DNA of 64,000 nt from positions 186,001-250,000 of the forward strand of contig NZ_RBAL01000008.1 in NCBI RefSeq assembly GCF_003626535.1. Direction: 5' to 3'. The notes under the pieces are model-generated. The model was given only the letters and a program-made list of their open reading frames with translations, ran no database searches and was not told where the DNA came from. The position numbers and the translations under genes were made by a program. The DNA is from Streptomyces hoynatensis. GTDB taxonomy: Bacteria > Actinomycetota > Actinomycetes > Streptomycetales > Streptomycetaceae. Positions 8,570-13,974 of the stretch are shown here, piece after piece. Within the stretch, counting starts at the first letter, position 1; each line of letters begins with the position of its first letter.

Positions 8570-9214
8570 ATGCGTTTTCCCGGACTGCCGCACCTCGTGG
8601 CGCGCGCGGCGGCGCTGGCCCCGGGCGAGGGGCGGGCCGTGCTCGGCCTCGCCGGACCGCCAGGCGCGGGGAAGTCGACGCTGGCCACGCGGCTGGTCGC
8701 CGCGCTCGGCGAGCGCGCGGCCTACGTCCCGCTCGACGGCTTCCACCTGTCCAACGCCCAGCTCGACCGGCTCGGCCTGCGCTCCCGCAAGGGCTCCGAG
8801 CCGAGCTTCGACGTGTGGGGGTACGAGGCGCTGCTGCGCCGCCTGGCCGGGGAGCGCTCGCGCGGGGTGTACGTGCCCGACTTCGACCGCACCCTGGACG
8901 AGCCGGTGGCCGCCCGCCACCACGTGCCGGCCGGGGCCCGGCTGATCGTCACCGAGGGCAACTACCTGGCCTGCGAGGGCGAGGGCTGGCGCGCGGCGCG
9001 CTCCCTGATGGCCGAGGTCTGGTACGTGGACGCGCCGGACGAGGTCCGCGACGCGCGCCTGATGCGGCGGCACACGGGCAACGGCCGCAGCCCCGAGGCG
9101 GCCCGGGCCTGGATCGACGCGAACGACGCGCCCAACGCCGCACTGGTCAAGGCCTCACGTGCCCGCTGCGACCTGGTGCTCGAAGCCGAGGGCCGGGCCG
9201 GCCCCGGGGACTGA
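8570..9214 (+). CDS. Nucleoside/nucleotide kinase family protein (uridine kinase / PanK-like fold)
   Basis: P-loop kinase of 214 aa. Walker A GPPGAGKST is at about 29-37 and DGFHLSNAQLDRLG follows, the substrate-binding DGFH motif shared by uridine kinases, phosphoribulokinases and type I pantothenate kinases. VTEGNYLACEGEGW and the arginine lid RDARLMRRH complete the fold. Related actinobacterial proteins are annotated as fructose- or nucleoside-kinase-like; the substrate is unknown. It converges on cebG on the opposite strand and has no obvious partner. Confidence 0.75.
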   Translation: MRFPGLPHLVARAAALAPGEGRAVLGLAGPPGAGKSTLATRLVAALGERAAYVPLDGFHLSNAQLDRLGLRSRKGSEPSFDVWGYEALLRRLAGERSRGVYVPDFDRTLDEPVAARHHVPAGARLIVTEGNYLACEGEGWRAARSLMAEVWYVDAPDEVRDARLMRRHTGNGRSPEAARAWIDANDAPNAALVKASRARCDLVLEAEGRAGPGD

Positions 9215-9296
9215 CGGGGCCGGCCCGGCGCAACGGCCCGGCGGGACGGGCCTGCCGGGGCGGGTCTGGCGCAACGTGCCTGGCGGGAGGGGCCGT

Positions 9297-10223
9297 TCAG
9301 CCCTTGACCGCGCCCTGCATGATCCCGCTGACGATCTGCCGCCCGAAGACGACGAACATCGCCAGCAGCGGCAGCGTGCCCAGCAGGGCGCCGGCCATGA
9401 TGACCGACTGGTCGCGCACGTAGCCCGCGCTGAGCTGGGTGAGGGCCACGGGCACCGTCGGGTTGCTCATGTCCAGGGCGATGTACGGCCAGAAGAAGTC
9501 GTTCCACGCGTGCACGAACGTGATCATGAAGAGCACGGCCATCGCGGGCCTGGCGATGGGCAGCACGATGCTCCAGAAGATCCGCAGCGAGTGGGCGCCG
9601 TCCACCCGGCCCGCCTCCACCAGCTCGTCCGGCAGCGCCTCGGCCAGGTACTGCCGCATGAAGAACACGCCGACCGCGCTCACCAGGGTGGGGAAGATGA
9701 CCGCGGGCAGCTGCTGCCCCCAGCCCAGGTCCGACATCATCATGAACAGCGGGACGACCCCCAGCTGCGGCGGCACCAGCATCGTGCCGATGACCAGCAT
9801 CAGCAGGATGTTGCGGCCCCGGAAACGCAGCTTGGCGAAGGCGAACCCGGCCAGCGTGGCGAAGAGCACGGTGGCGGTGGCGATGGCGCTCGCGACGATC
9901 AGGCTGTTGCCCATCGCCTTGCCGAGCGTCGCGTCCTGCCAGGCCGTCGAGAGGTTCTTGAACAGGTTCGGGCCCGGGATGAAGGGCGGCGGGGTCTGCG
10001 TGACCCGCGTGTTGTCGGTGGAGGCCGCCACCGTCGTCCAGTACAGCGGGAAGAGGGACAGCAGCGCGGCGAAGCCGAGCAGCACGTACGCGACCGGGCC
10101 GGCGTGGTGCTGCCGCCCGGCGCCCTGGCGCAGGGACAGGCGCGCCCGCCGCCGGGGAACGCCTGCGGCCTCGGCGGGGTGGCGCCGCGGGGCCGGCCGG
10201 CCCCGGAGGGTTTCCGTGGACAT
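9297..10223 (-). CDS. cebG: Cello-oligosaccharide ABC transporter permease CebG-type
   Basis: MalG-type inner-membrane permease of a CUT1 sugar importer, 308 aa. Six membrane segments follow a 45-residue Arg-rich cytoplasmic N-terminus. The EAA loop that docks the shared ATPase reads LPDELVEAGRVDGA...FWSIVLP. GAGGAAG precedes the ATG. It lies three bases after cebF and is the last gene of the operon cebE-cebF-cebG. In Streptomyces griseus and S. reticuli bglC (beta-glucosidase) follows; here a convergent kinase gene follows instead. No ATPase is encoded, as expected because MsiK serves CUT1 importers in Streptomyces. Confidence 0.85.
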   Translation of the reverse strand: MSTETLRGRPAPRRHPAEAAGVPRRRARLSLRQGAGRQHHAGPVAYVLLGFAALLSLFPLYWTTVAASTDNTRVTQTPPPFIPGPNLFKNLSTAWQDATLGKAMGNSLIVASAIATATVLFATLAGFAFAKLRFRGRNILLMLVIGTMLVPPQLGVVPLFMMMSDLGWGQQLPAVIFPTLVSAVGVFFMRQYLAEALPDELVEAGRVDGAHSLRIFWSIVLPIARPAMAVLFMITFVHAWNDFFWPYIALDMSNPTVPVALTQLSAGYVRDQSVIMAGALLGTLPLLAMFVVFGRQIVSGIMQGAVKG

Positions 10224-10226
10224 GGC

Positions 10227-11222
10227 TTACCGCTTCCTCCTCGCGGGCCGGCGGGACGCAAGGCGCGAGATCACGCGCTGGAGCACGAAGACGAGGACCA
10301 GCAGCAGGAACATGGCCCAGGCGATGGTGGCGGCGCGTCCCATCTGGTAGTTCCGCCAGCCCTCCTCGTACAGCAGCAGGCCGAGCGTCTGGTACTGGTT
10401 GTCCGCGCCGCCGGTGACCCCGTTGGGGCCCTGCCCGAAGATCAGCGGCTCGCCGAACAGCTGGGTGGCGCCGATGGTGGACAGCACGATGGTGAAGACG
10501 ATGGTGGCGCGGATGCCCGGGATGGTGACGGTGCGGAACTGCTGCCAGCGGGAGGCGCCGTCGATCGCCGCCGCCTCGTAGCGGTCGCGCGGGATGGCCT
10601 GCATCGCGGCCAGGTAGAGCAGCGCGTTGTAGCCGGTCCAGCGCCAGATGACGATGGTGGAGATGGCGAACTGGGCGGGCCACTTCTCGTTCTCCCAGTC
10701 GACGTCGCCGAAGCCGACCAGGTTCAGGCCCCAGTTGATCATTCCGAAGTCGCGCTCGAAGAGCATGCTGAAGACGAGCGCGGCGGCGCCGACCGAGGTG
10801 GCGTAGGGCGCCAGGGCGGCCACCCGGAAGAAGAGGGAGCCGCGCAGGTGGTAGTTGAGGAGGTGGGCGAGGCCGAGGGCCATCAGCAGCTGCGGGACGG
10901 TGGAGATGACGCCGATGGTGAAGGTGTTGCGCAGCGCGTTCCAGAACCTGTCGTCCTGCCACAGGTCGGTGTAGTTGCCCAGGCCCTTCCAGGACATGAC
11001 GTCCAGCGTGGACAGCTCGACCTGGTGCAGCGAGACCCAGAAGGTGTAGAGCAGCGGGTAGAAGCTGAAGGCGGCGAACACGACGAAGAACGGGGCGATG
11101 AACCCGTAGGGCGCCGCCCGGATGTCGAACCGGTGCAGGAGGGTGCGCCGTCGCTGCCCGGACGTGGGCCCGGGGCCGGAGGGACGCAGGTCCGCCGCGG
11201 GAGTGGAGGTGGAGGCGGCCAC
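10227..11222 (-). CDS. cebF: Cello-oligosaccharide ABC transporter permease CebF-type
   Basis: MalF-type permease, 331 aa, partner of CebG. It has six membrane segments, a periplasmic region around GYNALLYLAAMQ, and the EAA loop IPRDRYEAAAIDGASRWQQFRTVTIP. I prefer the GTG at 11222 because AAGGAAGGGAGG lies five bases upstream; a GTG 24 bases earlier lacks a ribosome site. The 153-base gap to cebE contains only GC-rich sequence and possible attenuating stems, so the permeases may be expressed at a lower level than the binding protein. Confidence 0.85.
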   Translation of the reverse strand: MAASTSTPAADLRPSGPGPTSGQRRRTLLHRFDIRAAPYGFIAPFFVVFAAFSFYPLLYTFWVSLHQVELSTLDVMSWKGLGNYTDLWQDDRFWNALRNTFTIGVISTVPQLLMALGLAHLLNYHLRGSLFFRVAALAPYATSVGAAALVFSMLFERDFGMINWGLNLVGFGDVDWENEKWPAQFAISTIVIWRWTGYNALLYLAAMQAIPRDRYEAAAIDGASRWQQFRTVTIPGIRATIVFTIVLSTIGATQLFGEPLIFGQGPNGVTGGADNQYQTLGLLLYEEGWRNYQMGRAATIAWAMFLLLVLVFVLQRVISRLASRRPARRKR

Positions 11223-11375
11223 GAGGGCCTCCCTTCCTTGGGGCACTTCTTGGCGCGCGGTGGTTTCGCGGAGTTTCCGCGGGAGGGCGGCGCCGGGCGC
11301 GCCGCCCGGGGGGCGGCCCGGGGGCGCCGGAGCGCTCCTCGGGCCGCCCTGGAAGCCGGCGTGCGGCCTGGCGGG

Positions 11376-12689
11376 TCAGCCGACGGCGTGCTGGATGTCC
11401 TCGTCGGTGGCGTCCCAGGCGTCGTCGGGGCTCTGCCCCTGCGACTCGATGCGCTGGAGTCCCTGGGCGAAGAGGTTCTTGATGGTGCCGTCCTTGCGGC
11501 CGAGCACCTGCTCGTCGGGGATCTCCTGGGCGGCGGCGCCGAAGATCCGGCCGATCGGCGCGTCGTTGAAGTACTCCGAGGTGACGTTCTGCACCTCGGG
11601 AGACTCGATGGCCTCCTGGGACGAGGGGAAGAAGCCGAGTTCCTGGAACAGGTACGCCTGTTGCTCAGGCGCCGTCAGCCAGGCGATCAGGTCGATGGCC
11701 TCCTGCCTGACCGGGCTGTCCTGGTTGACCGCGAGGAAGGAGCCGCCCCAGTTGGCGCCCTGCGGGGCGGGGGCCACGTCCCACTTGCCGGCGTTCTCGG
11801 GGCCCGCCTTCTCCTGGATGTGGGCGAGCATCCACGCCGGGCACACGGTGGTGGCGAAGGTGCTGTTGGCCAGGCCCGGGTCCCAGCCGGTCTGGAACTG
11901 CCGCAGGGCCGCGGTCATTCCGGAGGAGGCGGCCTGGGAGGCCAGCTCCCAGGCGTCGTGGACGGCCGGGTTGTCCTGGTAGATGAGGTCGCCGTCCGCG
12001 TTGTAGAACTGCTCGGAGCTGCCGTAGATCATGGCGTTGAACAGGCCGCTGGACGTGTCCATGTAGGAGAGTTCCGGGTCCTGCGAGTCGGCCATGAAGC
12101 GCTCGCCGACGTCGACGTACTGCTCCCAGCCGTCGGCCCACAGCGCGCCGACCTCCTCGCGGTCGGTGGGCAGCCCGGCCTGCTCGAACATGTCCCGGCG
12201 GTAGCAGACGGCCATCGGACCCATGTCGGTGCCCAGGCCGAGGACGGCGCCGTCCTCCGTGGTGATCTGGTTCTGCTTCCACGGCAGGAAGTGGTCGGTG
12301 CCCGGCACGTCCGACAGGTCGGCGAACCGGTCGGCCTGGGTGTCCACGATCTCCCTGACCCGGCCGATCTCGATGCCCTGAATGTCCTTCAGCCCGCTGC
12401 CGGCGGCCAGGTGGGTCTGGAGGGACGTGTAGTAGGTCTCTTCGTCACCGGCGACCTCGGCCTCGATGGTGACGTCGGGATGCTCCTCCATGTACCGGTC
12501 GAGGAGATCGGTTTCCTTGTACCCCATCACCCCGAACAGGCCCATGGTGATGGTGACCTTGCCGTCCTCGGACCGTCCGCCCCCGGTCCCTGTGTCGCTG
12601 CCGCCGCAGCCCGCGAGCAGGGCGAGCGAGACGACGGCGGAGACGATCCCTACGACTCTTGTACGCGGTAACACGCGAGCACTGCGCAT
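11376..12689 (-). CDS. cebE: Cellobiose/cello-oligosaccharide-binding lipoprotein CebE-type, with a TTA codon
   Basis: Extracellular solute-binding lipoprotein, 437 aa, CUT1 family 1. The signal peptide ends in LLAGC. Blocks TMGLFGVMGYKETDLLDRYM, GLGTDMGPMAVCYRRDMFEQ, AALRQFQTGWDPGLAN and APIGRIFGAAAQ closely follow what I know of CebE. The start is fixed by AAGGAG five bases before ATG 12689; an upstream ATG would run through the operators. Codon 7 is TTA (12669-12671), the rarest leucine codon in Streptomyces, and several neighbouring codons (AGT, GCT, CGT, ACA, AGA, GTA) are also atypical. In Streptomyces, TTA translation needs the developmentally controlled bldA tRNA, so uptake may be tied to development. 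Confidence 0.88.
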   Translation of the reverse strand: MRSARVLPRTRVVGIVSAVVSLALLAGCGGSDTGTGGGRSEDGKVTITMGLFGVMGYKETDLLDRYMEEHPDVTIEAEVAGDEETYYTSLQTHLAAGSGLKDIQGIEIGRVREIVDTQADRFADLSDVPGTDHFLPWKQNQITTEDGAVLGLGTDMGPMAVCYRRDMFEQAGLPTDREEVGALWADGWEQYVDVGERFMADSQDPELSYMDTSSGLFNAMIYGSSEQFYNADGDLIYQDNPAVHDAWELASQAASSGMTAALRQFQTGWDPGLANSTFATTVCPAWMLAHIQEKAGPENAGKWDVAPAPQGANWGGSFLAVNQDSPVRQEAIDLIAWLTAPEQQAYLFQELGFFPSSQEAIESPEVQNVTSEYFNDAPIGRIFGAAAQEIPDEQVLGRKDGTIKNLFAQGLQRIESQGQSPDDAWDATDEDIQHAVG

Positions 12690-12721
12690 CACTTCTCCTT
12701 GCGTAGCAGCTGCCGACCGAG

Positions 12722-12779
12722 TGGGATCGATCCCAGTGTCGGTGGGAACGATCCCAGTGGGCTGTGGGAACACTCTCCC
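12722..12779. promoter_or_regulatory. Three CebR-type operator boxes upstream of cebE
   Basis: Three copies of a TGGGA-N4-TCCCA-type element lie directly upstream of cebE. They are TGGGATCGATCCCA at 12722-12735 (perfect palindrome), TGGGAACGATCCCA at 12743-12756 (one mismatch pair), and a looser TGGGAACACTCTCCC at 12765-12779. The known CebR box is TGGGAGCGCTCCCA. Start-to-start spacing is 21 and 22 bp, two helical turns, which favours cooperative binding on one face of the DNA. They lie 33-90 bases before the cebE start. Confidence 0.8.
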
Positions 12780-12957
12780 GCCCCGATTTGACATGTCAAG
12801 AGCGAGAGGTCAAATCTGTTGGGAAGAAACGTGAAGAGCCGTCGGGGCCGCGGGGGCCGGCGCGTCGCGTCCGCCCGGACGTGGCGGAAGAATCCCTGGC
12901 CAAGGGCGAGTTCCGGCGCCGGTTGCGGGTGTGGGTCAGGAGAGGGGGCGGGTTGTC

Positions 12958-13974
12958 GTGGGCGGTACCCAACGGCCAACTATTAAAACCGTGGCCGCGC
13001 GGGCGGGCGTCGGACGCACCACCGTCTCCCGGGTCCTCAACGGCTCGCCCCTGGTGAGCGCGCAGGCGCGGGCGGCGGTGCTGGCGGCGATCGCGGAGCT
13101 GAACTACGTGCCGAACTCGGTGGCCCGCAGCCTGGTCACCAGCAGAACGCACTCGATCGCCCTCGTCATCCCGGAGTCGGAGAGCCGCCTGGGCGGCGAG
13201 CCGTACTTCTCGGCGGTGATCCGCGGCGTCAGCGCCGGCCTGGCGGGCACCAAGAACCAGCTGCTGCTGATCCTGGTGCGCGACGAGCGGGAACTCGACC
13301 GGCTGACCGAGTTCCTGACGGCCGGGCGGGTGGACGGCGTGCTGCTGGTCTCGGTGCACCGGGACGACCCGCTGCCCGGGCTGCTGGAGAAGCTGGGGCT
13401 GCCCACCGTGCTGGCCGGGCGCCGCTCCCCCGCCGAGCCGCTGCACCACGTCCACTCGGACAACGTGGCCGGCGCCTCGGCGGCCGTGCGCCACCTGCTC
13501 GACCGCGGGCGCGCCACGATCGCCACCATCGCGGGGCCGCTGGACATGGACGCGGGCCGAAGCCGCCTCGAGGGCTGGCGGCGGGCGCTGCGCGCGGCGG
13601 GGCGGGCGGCCGAGGAGGCGCTGATCGCCCCCGCCGACTTCACCGAGGAGGGCGGCAGGCTGGCGATGCGGGAACTGCTGGCGCGCCGCCCCGACCTCGA
13701 CGCCGTCTTCGCCGCCTCGGACGTGATGGCCGCGGGCGCCCTGGCCGAACTGCGCCGCCAGGGGCGGCGGGTGCCCGGGGACGTGGCGCTCGTCGGCTAC
13801 GACGACTCGATCGTCGCCAGGCACACCGACCCGCCGCTGACCAGCGTCAGGCAGCCGGTCGAGGAGATCGGGCGCACCATCACCGGGATCCTGCTCCAGG
13901 AGATCGCCGAGCCGGGCAGCGCCCGGCGGCACGTGGTGCTGCCCACCTCCCTCATCCCGCGGGATTCGAGCTAG
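12958..13974 (+). CDS. cebR: LacI-family repressor CebR-type
   Basis: Transcriptional repressor, 338 aa from GTG 12958. The LacI helix-turn-helix (TIKTVAARAGVGRTTVSRVLNGS) occupies about residues 7-30, with the hinge helix NSVARSLVTSRT after it, then a periplasmic-binding-type effector domain to the end. It is divergent from cebEFG and closely resembles CebR, which releases its operator on binding cellobiose. The start is uncertain: GTG 12931 adds nine residues but has no ribosome site, whereas 12958 follows a GGAGAGGGGG stretch. No box lies immediately before this gene, so autoregulation would have to act from the shared upstream boxes about 180 bases away. Confidence 0.85.
   Translation: MGGTQRPTIKTVAARAGVGRTTVSRVLNGSPLVSAQARAAVLAAIAELNYVPNSVARSLVTSRTHSIALVIPESESRLGGEPYFSAVIRGVSAGLAGTKNQLLLILVRDERELDRLTEFLTAGRVDGVLLVSVHRDDPLPGLLEKLGLPTVLAGRRSPAEPLHHVHSDNVAGASAAVRHLLDRGRATIATIAGPLDMDAGRSRLEGWRRALRAAGRAAEEALIAPADFTEEGGRLAMRELLARRPDLDAVFAASDVMAAGALAELRRQGRRVPGDVALVGYDDSIVARHTDPPLTSVRQPVEEIGRTITGILLQEIAEPGSARRHVVLPTSLIPRDSS

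Follow-up and report, generated by a model that had tools for sequence, protein, structure and literature searches.

A TTA codon at position 7 of cebE2, a gene for a predicted auxiliary cello-oligosaccharide importer in Streptomyces hoynatensis

The closest described counterpart of the locus analysed here is the cebR2-cebEFG2-bglC2/bcpE1 cluster of Streptomyces scabiei (scab2391-2431; PMC9953190), for which the CebR2 consensus operator is TGGGAACGTTCCCA (PMC9953190). TTA codons in genes of cellulose utilisation have already been described. About half of the genomes examined carry TTA in celB/celS2 (PMC4255298). In S. scabiei, TTA was reported near the start of two cellulose genes and also in txtR (PMC5332605), with the codon at nucleotides 22 and 13 of celS2 and scab51081, respectively (PMC4255298, PMC5332605). 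TTA codons are biased towards the 5' ends of genes in streptomycetes (PMC4255298) and are overall poorly conserved between species (PMC10327506), and polarity of the bldA effect in operons has been proposed (PMC2000904). No published TTA in cebE or cebE2 was found in the literature searched; cebE2 of S. hoynatensis adds one more gene to the cellulose-utilisation set.

The window, i.e., the whole stretch of 64,000 nucleotides analysed here, shows the same order as the S. scabiei cluster, with a divergent LacI repressor gene, a binding-protein gene and two permease genes. The window protein shares with S. scabiei CebE2 (scab2421; PMC9953190) the contact residues at equal spacing and operators of the CebR2 kind; compared with the S. 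scabiei CebR2 operators (PMC9953190), those of the window include TGGGAT half sites in addition to TGGGAA. The locus differs from S. scabiei cebEFG2 (PMC9953190) in the absence of bglC2, in Glu and Ala at contact positions 72 and 396, and in the presence of TTA. With celB/celS2 and scab51081 (PMC4255298, PMC5332605), cebE2 has in common a role in cellulose utilisation, a secreted product and an in-frame TTA. However, those genes encode extracellular enzymes under CebR boxes, whereas cebE2 encodes the binding protein of an importer, is preceded by CebR2-like operators, and has an unconserved TTA. S. scabiei txtR (PMC5332605) likewise stands under a cello-oligosaccharide-responsive repressor and possibly also under bldA, but it encodes a pathway activator and has TTA at nucleotide 621 and a CebR-type operator.

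Typing of the binding-protein gene and its locus

The following features were assigned in the window:
9297..10223, minus strand: cebG2, permease (BPD_transp_1), TTA-free
10227..11246, minus strand: cebF2, permease (BPD_transp_1), TTA-free
11376..12689, minus strand: cebE2, cello-oligosaccharide-binding lipoprotein of the predicted auxiliary importer, 437 amino acids (SBP_bac_8; match to 8bfy with E 2.9e-114; CebE2 contact residues at published spacing)
12606..12608, minus strand: codon 28 of cebE2 for the lipobox Cys, end of the signal peptide (from the sequence; almost every orthologue has this Cys at codon 27-28)
12645..12686, minus strand: codons 2-15 of cebE2, rich in A/T-ending codons (7 of 14 by codon count; family-wide trend; weak predicted folding)
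12669..12671, minus strand: TTA, codon 7 of cebE2 (minus-strand reading; sole in-frame TTA of the 53 called window genes)
12695..12700, minus strand: AAGGAG, ribosome-binding site at a distance of 5 nt from ATG 12689
12722..12735, no strand assigned: CebR2-like operator TGGGATCGATCCCA (from the sequence; same pair in relative L004)
12743..12756, no strand assigned: CebR2-like operator, on the minus strand TGGGATCGTTCCCA (from the sequence; same pair in relative L004)
12931..13974, plus strand: cebR2, divergent LacI-family regulator (domain match; 60% identical to the CebR of the second locus described below)

In a preliminary description the binding-protein gene had been named cebE and placed under CebR. 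Elsewhere in the genome, at G000:C1 (L100), the genes cebR-cebE-cebF-cebG-bglC form a locus of their own that carries the canonical CebR box TGGGAGCGCTCCCA; its CebE is 44% identical to the window protein. The solved S. scabiei CebE (8bfy) matched both paralogues about equally, and typing by this similarity was dropped; contact residues and operators were therefore used. The CebE2 contacts F40, V42, M43, E71, G93, D143, F253, W274, H278, W302, G304, and Q397 were matched at the published spacing, which is also kept in most of the orthologues that could be placed. Both operators are of the CebR2-like type TGGGATCGWTCCCA, with 1 or 2 differences from the consensus TGGGAACGTTCCCA that is present at many orthologous loci, and cebR2 is divergently oriented. 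The perfect CebR box TGGGAGCGCTCCCA occurs 25 times in the genome and not once in the window, which contains neither a cebR-cebEFG-bglC locus nor bglC. The operator, the paralogue and the contact residues thus all argue against a canonical cebE under CebR and type the window gene as cebE2, the predicted binding protein of an auxiliary importer; the name cebE had to be given up, and control "on top of CebR" was not found here, where the operators are CebR2-like and the CebR box belongs to the second locus. A search for an NCBIfam family for CebE2 returned none.

Two contact positions differ in the window protein: Gln is replaced by Glu at 72, and Ser by Ala at 396. Among 90 placed orthologues, only the window CebE2 has Glu at 72 together with Ala at 396 (CebE2 numbering). 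These substitutions could shift sugar binding.

No beta-glucosidase match was found in the window, where bglC2 was expected 3' of cebG2, its position in most orthologous loci. The gene is likewise missing there in three close relatives (L283, L284, and L285) and is kept in L004. The protein is classed as CebE2, and the gene cluster is classed as incomplete, being without bglC2. The gap was noted at window positions 8570-9297; a convergent P-loop kinase-like gene comes next in place of bglC2. Upstream of cebE2 in L283, L284, and L285, the closest relatives, TGGGAGCGGTCCCA or TGGGACCGCTCCCA replaces the CebR2 form; operator identity therefore drifts inside the clade. A perfect palindrome, TTGACATGTCAA, lies between the divergent cebR2 and cebE2 genes (window positions 12788-12799) and could provide TTGACA -35 elements in both directions.

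The TTA codon and the start region

The minus-strand reading of cebE2 from its ATG at 12689 is ATG CGC AGT GCT CGC GTG TTA CCG CGT ACA AGA GTC GTA GGG. Direct reading thus agreed with the preliminary description, which had placed TTA at codon 7; that it is the only in-frame TTA of the window was confirmed for the 53 genes of the codon-usage gene call. The reported short stretch of atypical codons was found as well: 7 of codons 2-15 end in A or T, and only 0.5% of the 991 genes sampled have as many. The assembly has draft status, and an error of sequencing at this single base is possible.

The N-terminus MRSARVLPRTRVVGIVSAVVSLALLAGC is a lipoprotein signal peptide whose lipobox Cys is residue 28. 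Codon 6 is an in-frame GTG, and a start there would keep TTA as codon 2. The codons that separate TTA from the lipobox Cys include no ATG, GTG or TTG, and every workable start of cebE2 therefore translates the TTA. An upstream start at ATG 12794 was rejected, since the reading frame would cross both operators and relatives begin at the proximal ATG.

The A/T-rich start is a property of the family. The frequency of A or T at third codon positions (AT3) across cebE2 genes was 0.25 in codons 2-15 versus 0.04 after codon 30. In the signal peptide n-region, the codons CGA 5, AGG 6, TTG 8, CGT 9, and AGA 11 are common across orthologues, a shared choice that suggests a family-wide rare-codon or low-structure start. 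Predicted folding around the start of the window gene was -20.8 kcal/mol, compared with -30.8 kcal/mol for synonymous versions, none of 500 being as weak; TTG at codon 7 gave nearly the same weak folding as TTA. Compared with all genes, the cebE2 start is only moderately weakly folded (16% as weak or weaker).

Frequency, conservation and decoding of TTA

The TTA rate of this genome was estimated from a nonrandom sample of 1.26 Mb (about 17% of the genome) comprising 991 genes, which were called by a simple codon-usage caller with approximate starts. TTA was found in 26 of the 991 genes (2.6%), with one codon each. A window of 53 genes would have at least one TTA gene with a probability of about 0.76 and at least one with TTA inside codons 2-15 with a probability of about 0.31. 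As an occurrence, the lone TTA in this window is not beyond chance. Per codon, TTA was about 9-fold more frequent in codons 2-15 than later in the sampled genes (7 versus 19; Fisher p 5e-5), in agreement with the published 5' bias. Because such codons generally cluster near starts, a lone early TTA says little in favour of developmental control of a Streptomyces gene, which is the main lesson as it stands.

Comparison of relatives, which the preliminary description had proposed as a check, did not reveal conservation of the codon. Only 5 of the 102 distinct orthologues of cebE2 carry an early TTA, and the four nearest relatives (73-77% identity) are not among them. Its distribution requires four changes on the maximum-likelihood protein tree, in which support is weak near some TTA tips. 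In the other TTA orthologues the codon is number 8, one codon after the window position in an ungapped alignment, and so at a different site. At this neighbouring site, 46 of the 65 orthologues with Leu use UUG; UUR accounts for about 3% of early leucine codons in the S. hoynatensis genome.

A single tRNA-Leu(UAA), bldA, is encoded in the genome, in addition to leucine tRNAs with the anticodons CAG, UAG, GAG, and CAA. The idea that tRNA-Leu(CAA) is missing, which would make UUG dependent on bldA too, was rejected: a strict sequence pattern had overlooked this tRNA, and ARAGORN placed it on C49. The gene has two sequence marks of a candidate bldA-dependent gene, namely an in-frame TTA past the true start and a single tRNA-Leu(UAA) in the genome; conservation of TTA, a mark of adaptive use that is not strictly required, is lacking at 5 of 102. 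No in-frame TTA was found in the open reading frames of the second locus, cebR-cebEFG-bglC, which encodes the main importer, and the codon therefore does not put cello-oligosaccharide uptake as a whole under bldA. Of the earlier proposal that uptake could be under developmental control, the part concerning this one gene has support from the sequence, with UUA in frame under any plausible start and one tRNA to read it; uptake in general need not depend on bldA.

Origin and possible consequences of the codon

The reading that we favour, with a probability of about 0.6, is that the TTA is a lineage-specific by-product of the A/T-rich 5' end of cebE2 and that it would impose a bldA requirement on the auxiliary CebEFG2 importer only. 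The family-wide A/T-rich, rare-codon 5' end, weakly folded in the window gene, would favour UUR leucine codons and occasionally yield UUA, so that the codon would have arisen without selection for developmental control. Weighing against this reading are the only moderate weakness of the folding among all genes and the offset of one codon between the window TTA and that of the other TTA genes. Ribosomes on the cebE2 mRNA would then require the bldA tRNA at codon 7, and translation would be reduced without bldA. While charged tRNA-Leu(UAA) is scarce, CebE2 would be made poorly, and later in growth it would be made better; a block at codon 7 might by polarity also lower CebF2 and CebG2. Transcription would respond to cello-oligosaccharides independently of this, probably by way of CebR2 acting on the two TGGGATCGWTCCCA operators. 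Judged from these sequence features, the auxiliary importer is probably bldA-sensitive through its TTA. If UUA does limit CebE2, exchange of a single codon would cleanly test whether bldA controls nutrient uptake, independently of the main transporter, and an importer would join the TTA cellulase genes already known.

A start downstream of the TTA, which would leave the codon untranslated, is next to negligible: the stretch from TTA to the lipobox Cys lacks a start codon, the compared orthologues place the Cys about 26-28 codons after the start (with the start of L004 reset to the proximal Met), AAGGAG is spaced for ATG 12689, and the sequence offers nothing in favour of such a start. The codon might instead be translated and silent, without measurable effect, if enough bldA tRNA were available when cebE2 is transcribed or if UUA were misread. 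Expression of UUA-containing genes without bldA has been reported (PMC4932002), and AdpA production was leaky in Streptomyces ghanaensis without bldA; however, MoeE5 was undetected in the same S. ghanaensis bldA strain (PMC3814723), and UUA has no standard decoding route besides bldA (PMC4932002), which makes a silent codon unlikely.

That TTA was gained four times independently within a single signal-peptide region may also point to selection rather than a by-product. TTA would then have been kept as an adaptive bldA gate that delays a back-up importer to late growth or stress, alongside TTA-bearing cellulases sharing an 'expression space'. Consistent with a gate are the approximately four gains in cebE2, the frequent TTA of celB/celS2 (PMC4255298), the early TTA of the two S. 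scabiei cellulose genes (PMC5332605), and, in this genome, a GH9 cellulase gene with a CebR box whose signal-peptide region includes TTA. Against it, the codon is unconserved and absent in the nearest relatives, TTA occurs in only 1 of the genes adjoining the 25 CebR boxes, the main importer is ungated, and 5' bias alone explains the position of the codon. We regard such a gate as rather unlikely. A broader version, in which UUA was recruited about four times in the CebE2 signal-peptide n-region and the auxiliary importer forms a bldA-gated late-growth cellulose module with TTA-bearing CebR-regulated cellulases, the main importer remaining ungated, appears unlikely.

The GH9-CBM3 cellulase gene (L255:917-2830; G000:C8, approximately 134.7 kb) has a perfect CebR box upstream and a TTA codon in its signal peptide. 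Besides cebE2, it is a further gene of this genome that combines TTA with a role in cellulose utilisation.
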